NCBI GenBank assembly: GCA_025060415.1
Contig: JANXBT010000002.1
Location: forward strand, 372,001 to 436,000
Direction of reading: 5' to 3'
DNA: 64,000 nt
Source: Candidatus Bipolaricaulota bacterium
GTDB lineage: Bacteria > Bipolaricaulota > Bipolaricaulia > Bipolaricaulales > Bipolaricaulaceae
The notes under the pieces were generated by a model. That model was not told the DNA's origin, did not search any database, and worked only from the letters and a program-made list of their open reading frames with translations. Both the position numbers and the translations under genes were made by a program. Numbering within the stretch: the first letter of the stretch is position 1; each line of letters begins with the position of its first letter. This document shows positions 3,001-41,215 of this stretch, piece by piece.

Positions 3001-4460
3001 GCGCGGCCGGAGTAGTCCACGCGGCGGCCCAGGAGGTGCCGGCGCAGCCGCCCCTGCTTCCCCTGGATGCGCTCCGAAAGGCTCTTCAGGGGCCGGCCAT
3101 CCCGCCCCTTGATGGGGTTGTCCTTCTTCTCGTTGTGGATGAGGGCGTCCACCGCCTCCTGCAGCATCCGCCGCTCGTTGCGCAGGATGATCTCGGGCGC
3201 GCCCATCTCCATGAGCTTTTTGAGGCGGTTGTTGCGGTTGATGATGCGGCGGTAGAGGTCGTTGAGGTCGGTGGTGGCGAACTTCCCTCCCTCCAGCTGG
3301 ATCATGGGGCGCAGGGCTGGGGGGAGCACGGGGATGACCTCGAGCACCATGTCCTGGGGGCGGTTCCCGGAGCGGCGGAGCTGCTCCACCACCTCCAGGC
3401 GGTGGAGGATGCGGCGGCGGTCGGTCTGGCCCACGGTGCGGTCCAACTCCTCCCAGAGCTCCTCCGCGAGCCGATCGAGGTCCAACGCCGCGAGGAGCTT
3501 TTTGATGCCCTCCGCGCCCGTGGCCGCCTCAAACCCCCCGGGATAGGCCCGCTCGTAGGCCCGCACCTCCAGGGTGGAGAGCATCTGCCCCACCCGCAGG
3601 GGCACGTTCTCCCCCACCCGCACCACAAGGTGGGTGAGGTTGTCCACCACCTCCGTCACGGGGTGCCCCTCCACGCCCTCGTAGCGGGCCCGGAACATTT
3701 CGAACATCGTCTGGGAACAGATTTCCTTCGCGGGCCGCTCGCAGAGGAGCTCCCCCTCGGCCACCTCATCCCCGTCCTCCACGAAGAGCTCGGCGTCCAG
3801 GGTGACGGGGTACTCGTGGTGGCCCACCACGAGCACGCGGAAGGATTCCCCGTTTTGGAGGCGGCGGTCCTCGAAGCGCACGCGGCCCGCCTCCTCCGCG
3901 ACGATGCGGGGGCTGGCCGTAAGAAGGTAGGCCCGCTCCGCCTGGAACGTGAACACCCCCTGCAGGATGCGCAGCTCTGTGCCGTACAGGGTCTCCCCGG
4001 GGCGGACCTTCGGGGAGGCGGATTGGGTCACCACGTACAGCTCCTCCCGGGCCGTCTCCGTCTCGTAGTAGGCGATGCGCCGGAGGTCCCGGCGCTTGAT
4101 GCCCAACAGGCGGGAGAGGGGGCTGGCCACGCCCTTGAGGTACCAGAAGTGCACCACCGGGCTGGCCAGGCGGATGTGCCCCATGTTCACCCGGCGCACC
4201 GAGGAGTCGGTGACGAGGACCCCGCATTTATCGCAGGTGATGCCCTCGTAGCGCTTGCCCCGGTACTTGCCGCAGGCGCACTCGTAGTCGTTCTCGGGGC
4301 CGAAGATCTCCTCCGCGTAAAGGCCCCCGCGCTCGGGCTTGTGGGTGCGGTAGTTGATGGTCTCGGAGTTCGTCACCTCCCCCTTGGACCAGGAGAGGAT
4401 CTCCTCGGGGGAGGCCAGGCCGATCCTGATCTTCGCAATATCGTCCCCGGAAATCGGCAC
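1..4460 (-). CDS. rpoC: DNA-directed RNA polymerase subunit beta' (3' end outside window)
   Basis: Largest catalytic subunit of RNA polymerase. The GTG start at 4460 follows a GAGGTGGTGA ribosome-binding site; an in-frame stop lies just upstream. The N-terminus carries the zinc site C61, C63, C76, C79, followed by the clamp region. The catalytic Mg-binding motif NADFDGD is at residues 592-598 (about 2667-2687). The reading frame runs off the left edge after about 1,486 residues, so the protein is long, in the range of the roughly 1,500-residue thermophile versions. It is the last visible gene of the hpf / PP-loop / zinc-ribbon run, 11 bp after the zinc-ribbon stop. rpoB, the usual upstream neighbour, is absent from this side. 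Identification is certain; the true length is unknown. Confidence 0.98.
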
Positions 4461-4471
4461 CGCTCACCACC

Positions 4472-4684
4472 TCAGCTCTTTTCGCTCGTCTTCCCGCCCT
4501 CGGACTTGCGGCGGTAGTCCGTGGTGTAGAAGCCGCTGCCCTTGTAGATCACCCCGAAACGGGAAAGGAGCCGGGTGACCGCGTCGGCGCCGCAGCCCGG
4601 GCAGCGCACCCGCGGGTCCCCGTTCCTCACCAACTCCCGAAACTCCGTCCCGCAGCGGTCGCAGCGGAAACGGTAGATGGGCAT
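4472..4684 (-). CDS. FmdB-family zinc-ribbon protein
   Basis: Small 70-residue protein that starts MPIYRFRCDRCGTEF and has a second CPGC pair at about residues 28-31, the four-cysteine zinc ribbon of the FmdB/CxxC_CXXC_SSSS family. The C-terminal half has the family's typical GVIYKGSGFYTTDYR stretch followed by a charged tail. I chose the ATG at 4684 because AGGAGGTGGGTG lies immediately upstream; a longer frame to 4729 has no such signal. The family was named for a putative regulator of formamidase, but its function is unproven in most bacteria. Its position 11 bp before rpoC, where rpoB would normally be, is the notable point. Confidence 0.9.
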   Translation of the reverse strand: MPIYRFRCDRCGTEFRELVRNGDPRVRCPGCGADAVTRLLSRFGVIYKGSGFYTTDYRRKSEGGKTSEKS

Positions 4685-4744
4685 CACCCACCTCCTTTTG
4701 CCGAACCCCGCAGGGAGTGGAGCGTACAAGAGGAACCGAAAAAG

Positions 4745-5722
4745 TTAGTTTACCCAGGAAAGCCCTTCGCGCAAGGGCTTGGGGAGGACCCGCAGGCGCC
4801 CGGTCTCCTCGGCCGCCTCGGCGCGAAAGCACACGGTCCAGGCCCGGTCGGCGTCGAACCCCCCTAGGGCCAGGAGCTTCCGGGCCGCCAGCGCCAGCAC
4901 CCGCTCGCGGGCCTGCGGGGGGAGCTTGGCCCACGGGCCGCGCAAAAGCCCAAGCGGCGAGCCCGGAAGAGACACGTACAGCCGCACATCCTCGGGGAGG
5001 AACAGCTCCTGGAGCCGGACCTGCTCCGCCGGCGTGGTGGCCACCGCAAGCACGGCCCCATAGGGGAGCCGGAAGAGGTGGGGGAACTCCAGAAGCCGCA
5101 CGAAGTTCGCCGTGAACAGGCTGTGGTGGTCCTGCCCGAACTCCTGGACGCGTTGGGCGAAAACGGGGTCCGCAAGAAGGCAGAAGCGCCCGGAAACCCG
5201 CGGGGAGAGCCCCAGACCCTGGGCGAGCGGGACCAGCTTGGAGCGCAGGGACCCGTCGGCGGAGAGGTCCAGCAGGGCCTCCCGGTCCACCGCCCCCTCG
5301 ACCTCGGCCAGGGTGGGGGAGAGGAGCTTGGCGGAGAGGGGGCGCAGCACGCGTCCCGCCAGCCCCACGCTTGCATCCAAGCCTTCCAGGGCCTCCGGGG
5401 AGAGGCCGCCCCGGCCCACCACCTCGCCGGTGACCACGAGGTCGAACCCGCGGCGGCGGAGGAGCCTGGCCGCCTTCTCCAGGAGCAGCCCGCGGCAAGC
5501 CCCGCAGGGGAAGGGCCCGCGGCCCCGGCCCGGCAGGCGCAGGAACTCCCGCTTCACCGTGATCGTGCGCAGGGGGAACCCCAGGGCGCGGGCCACCCGC
5601 GCCACACGCTCCTCGTCCCGAAAAAACGGGGAATGGAAGAAGACGAGGTGGAGGTCCCGCAGACCCGCCCGTTGGGCGAGGCGTACGGCCAGCGCGGAGG
5701 CCAGGCTGCCGGAAAAGAGCAC
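4745..5722 (-). CDS. PP-loop ATPase, tRNA-thiolation-like (MnmA/ThiI-type N-terminal fold)
   Basis: 325-residue protein beginning with an ATP pyrophosphatase-like loop. The first strand reads LFSGSLASALAVRLAQ, where the usual SGGxDS loop is changed to SGSLAS. A PCGACRGLLLEKA segment near residue 75 and an RPLSAKLLSPTLAEVEG segment near residue 128 match COG0482-like tRNA 2-thiouridylase relatives, whose role is ATP-dependent activation of tRNA for sulfur transfer. The degenerate loop makes activity uncertain. The GTG start at 5722 is the only start after an in-frame stop; AGGAGGTGAG lies about 13 bp upstream, right after the hpf stop. It sits between hpf and the zinc-ribbon gene in one run. 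Family assignment is fairly secure, substrate is not. Confidence 0.7.
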   Translation of the reverse strand: MLFSGSLASALAVRLAQRAGLRDLHLVFFHSPFFRDEERVARVARALGFPLRTITVKREFLRLPGRGRGPFPCGACRGLLLEKAARLLRRRGFDLVVTGEVVGRGGLSPEALEGLDASVGLAGRVLRPLSAKLLSPTLAEVEGAVDREALLDLSADGSLRSKLVPLAQGLGLSPRVSGRFCLLADPVFAQRVQEFGQDHHSLFTANFVRLLEFPHLFRLPYGAVLAVATTPAEQVRLQELFLPEDVRLYVSLPGSPLGLLRGPWAKLPPQARERVLALAARKLLALGGFDADRAWTVCFRAEAAEETGRLRVLPKPLREGLSWVN

Positions 5723-34573: not shown

Positions 34574-34705
34574 AAAGAAATGACTAGGAGCGGCGCAACA
34601 AAATGGCTTCCCAAGACGATCCGGTTGTCTTGCATGGCTGCATAGGGGGTCTTGCTTGTACAGAATCCCGAGCGAGGCCAGGGGTTCAGAAGAGGGGGTG
34701 ATGCT

Positions 34706-36628
34706 ATGTTTATTGTTGTCATATTATTTTTTGCTTGCCAATCAGGATGTTATACTGCTTACTGTTGGGGACCGAAAACCCACTACCAGCTTGTAGAGAA
34801 TGCGCTCACGAATATCCTAGGTAGTAGCCTTGCTGAAGAGATAGCGCAGAATACAGAGGAACCAGACTGTTGCCATCCTGAGGGATGCCTCAGCGTAGCA
34901 GGAAAGTTATGGGGGTGCGATTGCAATCAGCTAAAGAATGACCCAGATCGGGATAAGCTCTGCTCGTATGATCACGGGTTAACGGAATTGATGACAGAGG
35001 AAGAAAAGGAAAGATTTGGTGCAGGTGGAGTAGAAAGGGCTGTAGTATTTTTCGTTCAAAAAGCCTGCGAAGCTAAAACGCGTAATGATCCAAGATGGAA
35101 AAAGTATCTCGGCTGGGCTTGTCATTTTTTAGCCGATGCCTTGTGTCCACCCCATTGCTCCGAGTCAGATTGGTGGGAACAGCGGGATTGGGAGGCATCT
35201 TTCTTAATAGGATTGCCTGCCTTATTTTTTGAGCCAAGGCGTTCCCTTGTTTTTGAAGCATATTTTGATTTATTAGGAGGCGAATATATTAAAAACGCGA
35301 AGGGTCAAGACTCCCCAGCATTTAAGACGCTCTTCGATATAAATAAATGGGTGATTGACGAAGCAAGACGGGTAAAGGATGAATATAAACCCGCTACCCG
35401 TAGATTTTCCTTTGATGTTCCATATCTAAGGAGAGAACACCTTGTAGACATCTGTAAGAAAATCGGGTTTGGAATAAGGGGAATATATCAATATGTTCTG
35501 AACTCGGGCTGCTCGCTTCCTACAACGGACGATCTGCATGTGCCCCCGCTTTCGACGGGCTACTCCGCCACCATACTGGTGATGGACGTTTCAGGTAGCA
35601 TGGCATCGCGCTGGCGGGGAGGTGTCAAGATAGAATCCGCTAAAAAAGCGGCTCTGCAATTCATCGAACAAGTGGCTAATGAACCGCGACCGTCTGGGAC
35701 CGTACATATGATCGGTGTTGTTACCTTCAGTGACAATGCTCGCCTGGCCTGCCCTCTCACTCCCAATTATGCCGAAGCTAAGAAGACCATTATAGGTTTA
35801 GGGACGCTAAACATGACGAACATGGGCGCAGGTCTAGATGAGGCTCTTAAAGAACTAGCCAAGGTACCCTCGGGAAGGCGTTTTATCATACTCCTTAGTG
35901 ACGGGATGACAAACACAGGAAAATCACGGGATCAAATTTTAGCCACGTCAGTATCTGAAGCTCGCGCCAAAGGGATTTGCATTTATACGGTAGGGTTTGG
36001 CGACCCAGGAGACATTGACGAGGATTTTCTGAAGAAGGTGGCGCTTCACTCCGGCTGCGGAACGTATAACTACGCTTCGAGCGGACTAGAACTCTTTGGT
36101 ACATATATCAAGGTCAGACACGCTATGCTCGGAAGTAACCGCATTGTAGACTTTGCCTCGGGTTCTTCTCCCGTTCGCATGCTGGCAGGGCAAACCGCAA
36201 CTCTGGGCGCTTTCCAGCTTACAGCGCCTGCACAGGAGCTTCACTTTACACTCGCTTGGTCTGAACCAGGCCGGATGCAGGCCATTCTAGTGGACCCCAA
36301 TGGAAAGAGGGTAGGCACGGGTTATCCAGGAGTTCAGATGTACTCAGGCACCGGTTTTGTACACCTCACTGTGTTCCAACCTAAACCAGGCATATGGAGA
36401 GCTTCCGCGGCCGCGAACACTTCTTTCGTTCAGGGAGTCCAATATTACGGGGTTGTGTCTGCGCGCACCGGTGGCATCGTTATCCCGTACAAACTTCCCA
36501 CCCCCTGTTTCGACGTGTTAGGCACAGAAATCTGTGTTCCGTTCCCGGACTTGCCAACGGTCCTTATCGTCGTCGGATCCATAGCTATCCTCGCTTGGGT
36601 CGTGTACACGCGGCTGACAGCCCCATGA
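34706..36628 (+). CDS. exported S1/P1-nuclease- or PLC-like zinc domain fused to VWA domain, C-terminal anchor
   Basis: 640 residues. A signal peptide (MFIVVILFFACQSG, ending around C20) would leave W21 as the mature N-terminus. W21-x4-H26, H90 and H140-x3-D144-x5-H150 reproduce zinc-ligand spacing of P1 nuclease (W1, H6, H60, H116, D120, H126) and of phospholipase C. The last His-x3-Asp/Glu pair is not obvious. Residues from about 285 form a von Willebrand A domain with MIDAS DVSGSMAS (D294), NMTNMG and LLSDGMTN. A beta-rich region (about 500-600) and one C-terminal helix (TVLIVVGSIAILAWVVY) follow. Start chosen at 34706 from GAGGGGGTG. Probably faces outward, tethered to the membrane. Cys-rich N-terminal half suggests disulfides. 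Codon use is unlike the core genes. Confidence 0.72.
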   Translation: MFIVVILFFACQSGCYTAYCWGPKTHYQLVENALTNILGSSLAEEIAQNTEEPDCCHPEGCLSVAGKLWGCDCNQLKNDPDRDKLCSYDHGLTELMTEEEKERFGAGGVERAVVFFVQKACEAKTRNDPRWKKYLGWACHFLADALCPPHCSESDWWEQRDWEASFLIGLPALFFEPRRSLVFEAYFDLLGGEYIKNAKGQDSPAFKTLFDINKWVIDEARRVKDEYKPATRRFSFDVPYLRREHLVDICKKIGFGIRGIYQYVLNSGCSLPTTDDLHVPPLSTGYSATILVMDVSGSMASRWRGGVKIESAKKAALQFIEQVANEPRPSGTVHMIGVVTFSDNARLACPLTPNYAEAKKTIIGLGTLNMTNMGAGLDEALKELAKVPSGRRFIILLSDGMTNTGKSRDQILATSVSEARAKGICIYTVGFGDPGDIDEDFLKKVALHSGCGTYNYASSGLELFGTYIKVRHAMLGSNRIVDFASGSSPVRMLAGQTATLGAFQLTAPAQELHFTLAWSEPGRMQAILVDPNGKRVGTGYPGVQMYSGTGFVHLTVFQPKPGIWRASAAANTSFVQGVQYYGVVSARTGGIVIPYKLPTPCFDVLGTEICVPFPDLPTVLIVVGSIAILAWVVYTRLTAP

Positions 36629-36723: not shown

Positions 36724-37218
36724 TCACTGGGTGGGTACGGTAAGCGGGATTTGCAAGACCGCATCGTAGTGGCTAAAGAAGACCGCGATGTGTTGAGTCG
36801 CTAGAGTGTTGATACTCGGCTCTTGTAGTTCGCGGAGGAGGCAGGCATCGGTATGGCTAGTAAAGGGACGCAAGATTTCGGTGGCCAGTTGGGTTAATGG
36901 GGGCAAAGTAAGGGAAACGCTTGTCGTAGCATCCGTGTGGCTAATAAAAATCTTCGTCAACGAAGTTGAGGATGTCGTCAGGTTGGGCTCGGTAAGGGTT
37001 AAGATGTTTTGTCCGTCAACGTGACTTACAAAAGTAGCTGAAAGGGTACCCGCCTTTGTAACGATGGCTGGAGCAACCAGTTCCTGGGAGGTGTACACAT
37101 CCCAGCCCTCGACTTCCAAGCTTGCAGGAACGGGTTTCGGTCCAGGCCATAGAATCCAAAGAAGCACCACTGCCGCCGCAACACCAAGGAGTATGAGCAA
37201 AGTATGATCCATAGCCAT
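36724..37218 (-). CDS. membrane-anchored protein of four 28-residue repeats (FxSHxDA)
   Basis: 164 residues. One N-terminal membrane helix (LLILLGVAAAVVLLWILW, residues 7-24), a short Pro-rich linker, then four repeats. The motif F-x-S-H-x-D recurs with S/H at 65/66, 93/94, 121/122 and 149/150: an exact 28-residue period; Asp at 68, 96, 124 and 152 is invariant. Each unit continues with alternating hydrophobic residues, suggesting beta strands. Invariant His and Asp could bind metal. I do not recognise the family. Its start lies 3 bp after the stop of the upstream secreted-protein gene, so they form an operon. The start may be Met1 or Met3. Confidence 0.7.
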   Translation of the reverse strand: MAMDHTLLILLGVAAAVVLLWILWPGPKPVPASLEVEGWDVYTSQELVAPAIVTKAGTLSATFVSHVDGQNILTLTEPNLTTSSTSLTKIFISHTDATTSVSLTLPPLTQLATEILRPFTSHTDACLLRELQEPSINTLATQHIAVFFSHYDAVLQIPLTVPTQ

Positions 37219-37221
37219 CCC

Positions 37222-38037
37222 CTACGGGCTTTGGTAGATTACTACTAGCGCCAGCCCTGCTGAGCCACAATCCCCGCCTTGCTGACTATATACGAGTTCT
37301 AGCTCGTGAAGGACTCCAACGCGCAATAAGTCAACGGGTAAGTCTTTAACCTCATAGGCCGGGGGAAACCTCTCGTCACCGCTGAGCTTACTGATCAAAG
37401 AACCGTTAAGCGTCAGATTTGATACGAAACTCTGCCAAACATGAGGGCATTCCAAGTTGCATCCATAATGATAATAGGAGACATGATGGATTTTGTAATT
37501 AGACGGAAACTTTAAGTACATTACTTTCGTGTCCGCTGCCGGGAAAACTCGCAAAAGAATCAGCATATTATTAGCTTTAGGATATCGAAAGTCGTAGAAT
37601 GTTGGTTTCGGAAGCGTGAACTGAAGAGCAGCTGCTACTTTCTCAATTGCGGCCTCCAGTGTAGTACTGATTCTTGGTTGAGGATTATGTACATCGCCCA
37701 ACCACCTGATGATCGAAGCCGTGGGCTCTGAAGGCAGGAAGAACGCGACGATCCAACCTTGTACGTCGATGTAGACGTGAGGATAGGTCTTTTGAACGAA
37801 ATCGGAAATTTCTACCGTGCCCAGGATATGGCTGCCACTGACATCCTTAATGCGGTGGAAAATCTTTGTAAGCGCGTCATCAATGCGTATGGTGCGGTCG
37901 AGCTTCACCCACGCGCTGATACCCGCGGCGTCCTTTGGGAAAGCCAAAGCTCCTTCAGGCGCGACAAGCGGCGTTTGGGCTACCGCAAGACTAACCGTTA
38001 ACCCCACCAAGCTGGCCAACAGCGAAATTCTGCGCAT
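37222..38037 (-). CDS. secreted protein of unknown function
   Basis: 271 residues. ATG at 38037 follows AAAAGGAGGGTGG. Signal peptide MRRISLLASLVGLTVSLAVAQ. The mature part begins with PEGALAFPKDAAGISAWVKL and includes YPHVYIDVQGWIVAFFLP, an aromatic beta-strand segment, then IRWLGDVHN. Four to five cysteines cluster in the last third (YGCNLECPH, GGDCGS). No known catalytic motif. Same operon as the 28-residue repeat protein, so both may act together at the cell surface. A TATAAT box lies about 90 bp upstream. Family not recognised. Confidence 0.65.
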   Translation of the reverse strand: MRRISLLASLVGLTVSLAVAQTPLVAPEGALAFPKDAAGISAWVKLDRTIRIDDALTKIFHRIKDVSGSHILGTVEISDFVQKTYPHVYIDVQGWIVAFFLPSEPTASIIRWLGDVHNPQPRISTTLEAAIEKVAAALQFTLPKPTFYDFRYPKANNMLILLRVFPAADTKVMYLKFPSNYKIHHVSYYHYGCNLECPHVWQSFVSNLTLNGSLISKLSGDERFPPAYEVKDLPVDLLRVGVLHELELVYSQQGGDCGSAGLALVVIYQSP

Positions 38038-38128
38038 AACCACCCTCCTTTTAAACACGATTACTAACGCGAATGAGATGCGCCCTATGGTTCAAACAAT
38101 GAAATTTCACCATGCTCGCTTAAAACGC

Positions 38129-38209: not shown

Positions 38210-38668
38210 CTATAGCCATAAACTAAAGCCTACAAGCGGTACAGGGTAAACCCACCAAGGACGGTAACCCCACCAAGGGAGGTAGTAGCCAGCAAGATAG
38301 GTGAAGAACCCTGCAAACACCGCAGCCCCTCCCGCACTCAAGCAAAAGAGTTTGTCTGCATTTATGAGGAGAGGGTACGTGATTCCGAACTCAATGTAGG
38401 GAACGATAACAGCGATCGTGCCCCAGCCCCAGAAAAAGTTGAGTTTCTCTGGTTGTAGCCCTTCCTTAGCGGTGTAGTTCCTTGAGCTTACGCCTAGTCC
38501 AAAGTTGAACCCCCAGGCTCCGCGGATGAAGCCCTCCTGGTCGTAACGGACCCAGCCGATGGTAGGGAAATCAAGACCGATGACCATAGTAAGCTTGGGC
38601 ATCTCCTCAGCAAAGCCCGCTGCGGTTATCCCCACAACCAGCGCCAAAGGAACAGCGAAACGCCTCAT
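38210..38668 (-). CDS. small exported protein, unknown
   Basis: 152 residues. Signal peptide MRRFAVPLALVVGITAAGFAEE. The rest is rich in aromatic and Gly residues with alternating hydrophobic pattern (LTMVIGLDFPTIGWVRYD, WGFNFGLGVSS, WGTIAVIVPYIEFGITYP), ending in a Trp/Tyr/Pro segment (YLPWWGYRPWWVYPVPL) and a C-terminal Leu. This resembles a small beta barrel or outer-surface protein, but no family is recognised. It follows the 166-residue protein gene by 13 bp and shares its general style. Ribosome-binding site GAGGGTG. Confidence 0.6.
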   Translation of the reverse strand: MRRFAVPLALVVGITAAGFAEEMPKLTMVIGLDFPTIGWVRYDQEGFIRGAWGFNFGLGVSSRNYTAKEGLQPEKLNFFWGWGTIAVIVPYIEFGITYPLLINADKLFCLSAGGAAVFAGFFTYLAGYYLPWWGYRPWWVYPVPLVGFSLWL

Positions 38669-38681
38669 ATGGGTTGCACCC

Positions 38682-39182
38682 TCAAAACGACGGCAGGTAA
38701 TAACTCAAAGAAACAGTGAACCACGTTCCCCGCACCCAACAGTAGTACCAAGGGCAATACCAACAGTCCCGGCAGCAAAGGCAGTAAGTGAAGGCCATCC
38801 CTCCGGTGAAACCGAAGACCAGGTTTTCCAAACCTGGGGGGCACCATTCTACACCCATCCCGGCCCAGCCTGTCCACCACCAAGTGCCGCGGATAGGGAG
38901 GGCTGCGCCCACGGCGATGTACGGCCGAAAGGTGCAGAAATCGCGGAGTGTCTGAAGGGCGGCGAAGTAGAACCAGTCGAACTGGAAGGGGTTAGCAAGG
39001 CCGACTTCGAAGGCCGAGCGCGAGCTAAGCCAAAACCGAGCGGTCAGGAGAGGGGCACTCTGGCTTAGGGAAATCCCGAGGGACACAGACCCGCTGCCGG
39101 GACAACACAGCTCTTGGGCCCTGAAGCTTTGCCCCAGGGCCAGCACTACTACAGCGAGGAGCCCGGCTTTCCAAACCCTCAT
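38682..39182 (-). CDS. small exported Cys/Trp/Tyr-rich protein, unknown
   Basis: 166 residues. Signal peptide MRVWKAGLLAVVVLALGQSF. The mature protein has beta-barrel-like alternation (SGSVSLGISLSQSAPLLTARFW, AFEVGLANPFQFDWFY) and an unusual segment TYCLCCRDCWYCPWYYCWVR with six cysteines and five aromatic residues. It ends with LSYYLPSF, a terminal aromatic residue typical of outer-membrane barrels. ATG overlaps the ribbon-helix-helix stop by 4 bp. Function unknown. Confidence 0.6.
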   Translation of the reverse strand: MRVWKAGLLAVVVLALGQSFRAQELCCPGSGSVSLGISLSQSAPLLTARFWLSSRSAFEVGLANPFQFDWFYFAALQTLRDFCTFRPYIAVGAALPIRGTWWWTGWAGMGVEWCPPGLENLVFGFTGGMAFTYCLCCRDCWYCPWYYCWVRGTWFTVSLSYYLPSF

Positions 39183-39494: not shown

Positions 39495-40679
39495 CTACGG
39501 ACAAGACGGCACTGGTGCACCAGGCTCGCAGCAGGGCGCTTTCTTGGTGCAGTCGTCCGTAGCGCACATGGGGTTGTAGATCACTTGAAGGGCAGGCCCA
39601 GTGCCGGCGGGCCCGCCGCCGAACAAGGCCACAGCGAGGTCTAGGATGCCGTTGCGATCGAAGTCCCCCACGGCAAGGGAAATGGGGTTCTTGCCTATTT
39701 TGATCTGAAGGTCTACCCCGAACTTCCCGCCCAGGTTGGCCAGAACCGTCACCCGGTCCGCCCCGTATTCCGCAACCGCGAGGTCTATTTTTGTGTCACG
39801 GTTAAAGTCGCCGGCCACGATGGCCACTGGCTCACCATCAAGCTTTATGCGCTGAGCAATCGAAAACTTCCAACACCCGTCGTTGTGCACGTAAGTAAGA
39901 GCGGAGAAGGCGGGGTCCACTGTGGCCAGGTCCACCTTCCCGTCGTCATCGAAATCGGCCACGACAACGGCCCGTAACATGTGCCCCAAAACAATGTTTG
40001 TCCTATGTTTAAATTTTCCTAGGCACTCGTTTTCAAAGAAGATAAGGCTATTGTTAGAAGCAATCACGATGTCTACATCGCCGTCGCGGTCAAAGTCGCC
40101 GCTTGTGATAAACGCCACATGGCAAATCTGCGCGTAGGGCGTAAGGTCAAGGGGGTCAATCTTTGCGGTGGGGAAGATGACCTTGAGGCCCAGGGAATCT
40201 AGGACTGCCAGGTCCAGGATCCCGTCGCCGTTGAAGTCCGCAAGAGCGATGTGAGTAGCGGTCACGGTGGTAAGAGTGGTGAGCTTAAGGGAGACAGGAT
40301 CAGCCACCTTAAAGGAGGTCCAAGCCGGGGTGTACTGAGTGGCCGTAAAGATGCGGATTTCGTAGGCATCCCTAGGGCGGTCGAACACCAAGCCCCAGGC
40401 CAAGGCCACAGGAGCGTCCGCTAGAGTGAAGACCTTGGGCGCGGGCCAAGACACAGGACAAGGCGCGGGACAGACCTTGCTCCCCGGGTTCAAGAGTACA
40501 GGAATGGCGTTGCAGGAATGACAAGCTAGAGCGATGTCCTCCCAACCGTCGGCGTTGAAATCTCCGGCAATCACGTACGTGGGGCGGATGCACTCCAACA
40601 CCACGTTTTGGACAAGCGGCATCCGAGCCAGACCCCAAAAGCTTAGGATCCCCACAACAACCAAAGAAAGACGCTTCAC
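39495..40679 (-). CDS. secreted FG-GAP/VCBS repeat protein, short paralog
   Basis: 394 residues. GTG start at 40679 follows GGGAGGTGG. Signal peptide VKRLSLVVVGILSFWGLA. Six FG-GAP-type Ca-binding loops of the form DFNxDGxxDLAxA: GDFNADGWEDIALAC, ADFNGDGILDLAVLD, GDFDRDGDVDIVIAS, ADFDDDGKVDLATVD, GDFNRDTKIDLAVAE and GDFDRNGILDLAVAL, consistent with a beta propeller. The C-terminus is Cys/Pro-rich (CATDDCTKKAPCCEPG). Clear paralog of the 713-residue gene two genes upstream; both share the DAPVALA and QVIYNP segments. Probably a cell-surface or secreted adhesive scaffold; partner unknown. Confidence 0.85.
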   Translation of the reverse strand: MKRLSLVVVGILSFWGLARMPLVQNVVLECIRPTYVIAGDFNADGWEDIALACHSCNAIPVLLNPGSKVCPAPCPVSWPAPKVFTLADAPVALAWGLVFDRPRDAYEIRIFTATQYTPAWTSFKVADPVSLKLTTLTTVTATHIALADFNGDGILDLAVLDSLGLKVIFPTAKIDPLDLTPYAQICHVAFITSGDFDRDGDVDIVIASNNSLIFFENECLGKFKHRTNIVLGHMLRAVVVADFDDDGKVDLATVDPAFSALTYVHNDGCWKFSIAQRIKLDGEPVAIVAGDFNRDTKIDLAVAEYGADRVTVLANLGGKFGVDLQIKIGKNPISLAVGDFDRNGILDLAVALFGGGPAGTGPALQVIYNPMCATDDCTKKAPCCEPGAPVPSCP

Positions 40680-40696
40680 GAAAACCACCTCCCTTT

Positions 40697-41215
40697 CTAG
40701 CGAAGCACCAACCACATTAACAAGGCTCCCATAAGGAGCCCGATCACGAGCCAAGGAAGGCAGGAGGGACAGGCTTCGCAGGGCACATAGATCCCACGAA
40801 TGAGGAGCTGCTCACAGCAAGGGCCCAGCTCAATCCGCAGGATCCCGGAGTCCGGAAGATCGGAGATCTCCATCCACCACTCACCCTTAGCGGGAACGAT
40901 CACAGTGGAGACAAGCTGGCAATCGAGGAGGACACGGATCTTTCCCGCGGGTTCAGGGGACTCGAACACGAAGAGGAGCGTTTTGTGAGGGATAAGTCTT
41001 AAGGTGAGCTCATAGGCTGGGGCTGGGGGAACCTGAGCCGCGCTAAGAAGAAGCCCGCGTTCCGTGAGACCTGCGTGGCCCACTACGCAACCCGCACCCC
41101 ACCCGAGTTCACACCAGCCCTCCAGGCCTGGCCTCCCCGTTCCAGTGCGTACAGTAACTGCAGCCACCGGAAGGGCCCAAAGCACCACAAACAGAGCTAG
41201 CCCTATCCCCCTCAT
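40697..41215 (-). CDS. exported protein with C-terminal membrane anchor, unknown
   Basis: 172 residues. Signal peptide MRGIGLALFVVLWALPVAA, an extracellular domain of about 120 residues with Cys pairs (CELGWGAGC, PCCEQLL, PCEACPSC) and carbohydrate-binding-like beta strands (YELTLRLIPHKTLLFVFES, GEWWMEISDLPDSGILRIEL), then one membrane helix and a terminal Arg (WLVIGLLMGALLMWLVLR). Overall layout resembles surface-anchored proteins. It overlaps the large FG-GAP gene by 4 bp and lies 17 bp before the short one, so it is probably part of the same surface assembly. Confidence 0.65.
   Translation of the reverse strand: MRGIGLALFVVLWALPVAAVTVRTGTGRPGLEGWCELGWGAGCVVGHAGLTERGLLLSAAQVPPAPAYELTLRLIPHKTLLFVFESPEPAGKIRVLLDCQLVSTVIVPAKGEWWMEISDLPDSGILRIELGPCCEQLLIRGIYVPCEACPSCLPWLVIGLLMGALLMWLVLR

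Follow-up and report, generated by a model that had tools for sequence, protein, structure and literature searches.

A repeat protein and an adjacent secreted partner form an undescribed two-gene cell-surface module in bacteria and archaea

We found that a short repeat gene in the window (the whole 64,000-nucleotide stretch analyzed here, from a Candidatus Bipolaricaulota bacterium) belongs to an undescribed two-gene cell-surface module that is scattered in bacteria and archaea, including methane-eating archaea. What appeared to be a one-off SHxD oddity is part of a defined gene pair and a repeat family, both absent from Pfam and NCBIfam. The repeat ORF would be the membrane-anchored half of this module, and the pair comprises the following features:

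36724..37218, minus strand: repeat protein P0001, 164 aa, with a membrane anchor and five 28-residue units (ORF, G030 orthologue)
37150..37215, minus strand: N-terminal membrane anchor helix, residues 2-23 (AF2 helix and hydropathy)
37069..37119, minus strand: degenerate first unit, residues 34-50, LEVEGWDVYTSQELVAP (D40, L47 and P50 in the 28-residue frame)
36985..37035, minus strand: unit 2 core, residues 62-78, SHVD (sequence, period test, unit alignment)
36901..36951, minus strand: unit 3 core, residues 90-106, SHTD (sequence, period test, unit alignment)
36817..36867, minus strand: unit 4 core, residues 118-134, SHTD (sequence, period test, unit alignment)
36733..36783, minus strand: unit 5 core, residues 146-162, SHYD (sequence, period test, unit alignment)
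37222..38058, minus strand: partner protein P0002, 278 aa, secreted, of an undescribed family (homologues, AF2)

The period of 28 residues in the repeat protein is exact. Six columns are identical in its four main units (F63, S65, H66, D68, L75 and P78), whereas shuffling the protein body 5,000 times gave at most two identical columns at this period. The Ser-His pairs at 65/66, 93/94, 121/122 and 149/150 and the Asp residues at 68, 96, 124 and 152 lie precisely where the initial annotation had placed them. Its 28-residue period thus stands, but its count of four repeats becomes five. Asp, Leu and Pro recur every 28 residues, from 40/47/50 and 68/75/78 up to 152/159/162, and since this frame also takes in D40, L47 and P50, we recognize an overlooked, degenerate first unit (VEGWDVYTSQELVAP), which aligns with the first units of relatives. 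The G030 orthologue has a matching extra Asp at 47, followed by those at 75, 103, 131 and 159. With five units spaced by 28 residues, the window protein contains at least three copies of [DN]x6L at constant spacing. Membrane anchoring, likewise proposed earlier, was borne out by the N-terminal helix at residues 2-23 (hydropathy maximum, 3.08), which has a pLDDT of >90 over most of its length and is essentially the sole confidently modeled part of the protein. The repeats, modeled by AF2 as a single chain from 16 sequences only, reached a pLDDT of ∼45 and a pTM of 0.29, and low-confidence strands reappeared in each unit. The real start of the ORF is probably the second ATG (37212), because the G030 orthologue opens with MDRTLL.

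A search with the repeat protein among 100 genomes of the window's class identified G030 as the sole carrier of a close homologue; weak matches in the class (E 0.01-0.6) were taken as chance, and beyond this class search the same query gave no match in the genome contig collection. The gene order in G030 is as in the window, with P0002 being 54% and the repeat protein 31% identical. The main units of the G030 repeat protein are spaced 28/28/28, each of the four has SHxD, and the protein aligns with that of the window without gaps over 128 residues. Over the five units, Asp and Leu are identical in all five and Ser, His and Phe in four each, the mismatch being the degenerate first unit, which is devoid of these three residues. 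Taken together, Ser, His, Asp and Leu agree at 18 of 20 positions and the others at 22 of 108, consistent with the earlier proposals that the core is selected, here within the window/G030 clade, and that the rest of the unit has diverged strongly.

The partner gene lies directly upstream of the repeat gene on the same strand, and its stop precedes the repeat start by 3 bp, so that co-transcription of the two genes is likely. The link to a secreted neighbor suggested in the initial annotation is further supported by conservation of the gene pair across phyla. The AF2 model of P0002 as a single chain (pLDDT 88.6, pTM 0.85) predicts an N-terminal alpha/beta part and a C-terminal beta-sandwich. 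Cys, Lys, Arg, Asp and Glu are all absent from the invariant and near-invariant partner residues, which makes an enzymatic activity unlikely. In the window, the partner carries a plain signal peptide and lacks a membrane segment. Sequence searches for either family returned no credible match in Pfam, NCBIfam or PDB, in agreement with the first impression that the repeat family was unfamiliar; isolated sub-threshold Pfam or NCBIfam matches of a few members of the two families were to unrelated models.

Several other genes were noted around the pair. A VWA-domain protein (E 2e-16) with a weak N-terminal Zn-dependent phospholipase C-like match is encoded at 34652-36628 on the plus strand, and a VWA-type protein carries the repeat cassette as a fusion in the genome G016. 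An FG-GAP repeat protein is encoded at 39495-40754, and the G030 pair is also flanked by similar FG-GAP-like proteins (L030:1032-2444 and 4103-5545). Upstream of the window pair, 38210-38668 and 38682-39182 are short secreted, membrane-barrel-like ORFs with no Pfam match, and a similar-looking ORF follows the pair in G058 (L027:3224-3745).

Because the repeat protein alone found just G030, we switched the query to the neighboring gene and used the P0002 alignment to scan about 85,000 species genomes, which yielded 26 loci in bacteria and archaea. By record names, the archaeal loci belong to ANME-1/Methanophagales, Methanosarcinales, Methanoperedens, Argoarchaeum, Alkanophaga, Archaeoglobaceae, Bathyarchaeota and Nanohalarchaeota and the bacterial ones to Chloroflexota, Omnitrophota, Proteobacteria, Nealsonbacteria and Bipolaricaulota/Acetothermia; many are MAG contigs, and some of these labels may be binning errors. 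A 4.2-kb contig labeled Omnitrophota (L077, JAIORP010000153.1) has its partner gene within the ANME-1 group of the tree and is probably mis-binned. No relative was found among plasmids, phages and viral contigs, and a mobile-element origin thus has no support there.

In G058, G033 and G016, P0002 homologues are followed by repeat proteins with the cores RPLVEYSNGALGLTLERP, PRILFDAAA and PRIVSEYAQ, respectively, and genes downstream at the scan loci encode units of the type PR[IV][IV]VEYADSxxxxxLxxxP. In nearly all cases, the protein encoded downstream of a partner homologue carries two to seven copies of a repeat of the general form hhhxYADSx5L; the family as a whole is characterized by an hhhxxx[DN]x6L cassette together with a P0002-type partner. 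The SHxD and EYAD unit types share operon position and align in register, and a profile of both detects the cassettes of G016 (E 9.5e-6) and G114 (E 3.2e-9), which lay outside its training; these observations argue that the two types are homologous. Archaeal and Chloroflexota cassettes reside within larger surface proteins containing FN3, PKD, CARDB, dockerin/cohesin, beta-helix or similar domains. On the Methanoperedens contig JAPMTR010000066.1, two pairs are arranged in tandem (L064:5902-9076), their repeat proteins having dockerin-like ends, and a third partner-plus-repeat pair is present (L063). Contig 11 of G058 carries fragments of a second partner and an RPLVEYADAGW-type unit (L042:1191-1557), apparently a degraded duplicate pair. 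Searches of the open-access literature with motif strings returned no paper, or unrelated ones among those listed, and no description of the repeat was found in an ANME dockerin/cohesin paper (PMC9012536) or an Acetothermia paper (PMC6092417).

By simple hydropathy, the repeat proteins of the window, G030, G058 and G033 keep a membrane helix with no obvious cleavage site, and most of those from archaea and Chloroflexota have a signal-peptide-like N-terminus with AxA-type sites. In many archaeal and Chloroflexota partners, a conserved hSLxPPxFhxxAxA motif comes after a membrane segment; in the partners of L057, L059, L065, L066 and L071-L074, this motif separates the membrane helix from the mature domain. 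In the ANME genome G339, an ORF resembling caspase/C13 peptidases (YLVGHGTKD, SCYSGSF; recognized by eye) is located just upstream of the partner (L112:1-1374).

We aligned 72 units from 20 loci, a set that was collected with the profile and is hence biased toward already known forms. Position 14 of the unit, seven residues after the Asp, is Leu in all 72. Position 7 (Asp in the window) is Asp in 46, Asn in 23, Gly in 2 and Glu in 1, and 40 units have Tyr, 15 His, 14 Asn and 3 Leu at position 5, which is His in the window; the position of the Ser is mostly Glu. Elsewhere in the family, the His position is occupied by Tyr, Asn, Leu, Gly or Asp. Judged from these alignments, the conserved features of the unit are the Asp/Asn and the Leu seven residues on, the His and Ser of SHxD being local variants.

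This pattern bears on the initial annotation's prediction of a beta stack in which a ladder of His and Asp holds a row of metal ions. Such a ladder would be in keeping with the presence of Ser-His-x-Asp in each of the eight main units of the two proteins from the window and G030, whose identity elsewhere is about 20%, and with the EHLD units of ANME-2d. However, FISNQD, FISGED or FIINED takes the place of SHxD in relatives that share the 28-residue period (Phe being kept, Ser sometimes and His never), and His and Asp are not retained together at a constant unit position across homologues. The annotation had itself named homologues lacking the His/Asp positions as evidence against the idea, and the counts above show such homologues. 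Since His is replaced, the ladder is not a family property and was rejected as the family function. We consider this reading very improbable, although for the SHxD clade alone a metal-binding ladder may still apply.

Repeat genes nearly always adjoin a partner gene. We considered 40 partner genes that are complete and have a distinct gene downstream. The downstream protein had at least two periodic units in 33 cases, compared to 24 of 1,119 other ORFs serving as background, and at least three in 25 cases, compared to one, with a slight bias in favor of the partner genes, as each of these was represented by the best among several neighboring ORFs. The single background case with at least three units was antisense on a repeat gene. 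The other seven partner genes include those of G016 and G114 (Alkanophaga, with an internal cassette in a PKD-rich protein), both caught by the repeat profile. A Nealsonbacteria locus (L081) is the sole partner locus with no repeats nearby. Sampling 295 genomes of the ANME-1 phylum gave 18 with repeats, of which 16 also encoded the partner (hypergeometric p = 3e-18; 1e-9 once the training genomes were removed); these p-values overstate independence because the genomes are related. Within the window's class, partner and repeats were each present in 5 of 100 genomes, the same five for both. The partner gene came first in every pair examined.

Four ANME genes (two in G314 and one each in G295 and G382) encode, in one polypeptide, a P0002 domain, then a single repeat-like unit (IEIDEKCDSLWSVPTEYPKGLIND or a similar sequence) and an FN3-like domain. 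These fusions provide Rosetta-stone evidence of a functional linkage and show that a single unit next to one domain is a viable arrangement. The unit spacing is nearly constant inside each protein (mean SD, 0.17 residues), but it ranges from 25 to 35 from one protein to another. Exact-28 cassettes were found in 12 of 13 pairs in one half of the P0002 tree and in 0 of 19 in the other, a split whose support is only 94/94. The L059 contig holds two pairs, one per period type, and each repeat gene adjoins the matching partner, showing that pairs stay together.

We tentatively favor, with slightly less than even confidence, the explanation that the repeat protein acts as a multivalent docking array at the cell surface, with one partner held by each unit, and we infer that the two proteins bind directly, at one unit for each copy of the partner, and serve in surface attachment. 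Each unit of roughly 28 residues would comprise a strand (hhhx[Y/H/N]x), an Asp/Asn turn, a second short strand with the invariant Leu at its end and a linker, and would dock a single copy of the partner, the product of the adjoining upstream gene (37222-38058); the window repeat protein could in this way hold up to five secreted partner copies outside the membrane. In archaea and Chloroflexota, where the partner often has an N-terminal membrane segment, the module would serve to connect variable domains for adhesion or scaffolding with a receptor bound to the membrane. Adjacency, co-occurrence, the four fusions and the tracking of period with partner clade were all counted in favor of docking, and a single unit beside one domain, the variable copy number and repeats with no independent fold in the model fit docking elements. 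Weighing against it, operonic co-inheritance without contact could alone explain the match of period and clade, the fused units are divergent and L081 has no repeats nearby.

The within-protein period is also stricter than loose docking motifs require, and together with distinct, cap-like first and last units, which counted against docking as well, it leads to the main rival, in which the units stack as a short capped beta-solenoid or hairpin stalk with Asp/Asn and Leu as internal ladders and the partner as a tip or capping protein that would contact the stalk at just one end. A solenoid would be expected to conserve an Asp/Asn at the turn and a buried Leu in fixed phase, and the low-confidence AF2 strands recur in every unit. 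We nevertheless regard a stalk as rather unlikely, given that AF2 did not fold the repeats (though with few sequences), that the period differs between proteins and that the single units of the four fusions would be unable to stack. Still less probable, in our estimation, is that the partner serves as a dedicated chaperone, transport or maturation factor that does not stay bound to the repeat protein: both parts are one polypeptide in four genes, the near-invariant partner residues are not suggestive of an enzyme and the window partner has no membrane segment, even though the partner-first gene order, the membrane segment and hSLxPPxFhxxAxA motif of archaeal and Chloroflexota partners and the peptidase-like ORF of L112 would fit such a factor.

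The proposed docking array resembles cohesin-dockerin scaffolds (cellulosomes), which have been reported in ANME archaea too (PMC9012536), only in how it would work, namely, through two extracellular partners, a repeated module and attachment to surface proteins. Some repeat proteins also carry dockerin/cohesin domains, outside the repeats (L062). However, P0001, P0002 and their family members gave no cohesin or dockerin Pfam match, the units have no Ca-binding dockerin loops and a short element is repeated here rather than a folded domain. With beta-solenoids (right-handed beta-helix, pentapeptide and hexapeptide), the units share constant-length beta-rich tandem organization and a conserved turn and aliphatic residue, but they match no Pfam repeat family, yield no confident predicted solenoid and occur singly in fusions. 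Foldseek returned no whole-domain match for the P0002 model. Two jelly-roll proteins, the STNV coat protein (2buk) and the BC2L-C lectin domain (2wq4/6zzw), as well as BcsB overlap part of it, with target-normalized TM scores of up to 0.43, 0.42 and 0.14, respectively; the overlap is only partial, at 8-14% identity and a TM score to the query of 0.30 or less.

The family occurs in uncultured anaerobes of both domains. It is possible, though on balance doubtful, that it represents an unrecognized extracellular receptor-motif pair of archaea and bacteria, one that differs from the cohesin-dockerin, S-layer-homology and donor-strand systems and anchors variable adhesive domains or several partner copies at the cell surface, including in methane-oxidizing ANME living in tight consortia. 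If docking is true, the module would offer a new means of building complexes at the surface, and ANME and other organisms might use it to attach extracellular scaffolds or adhesins.
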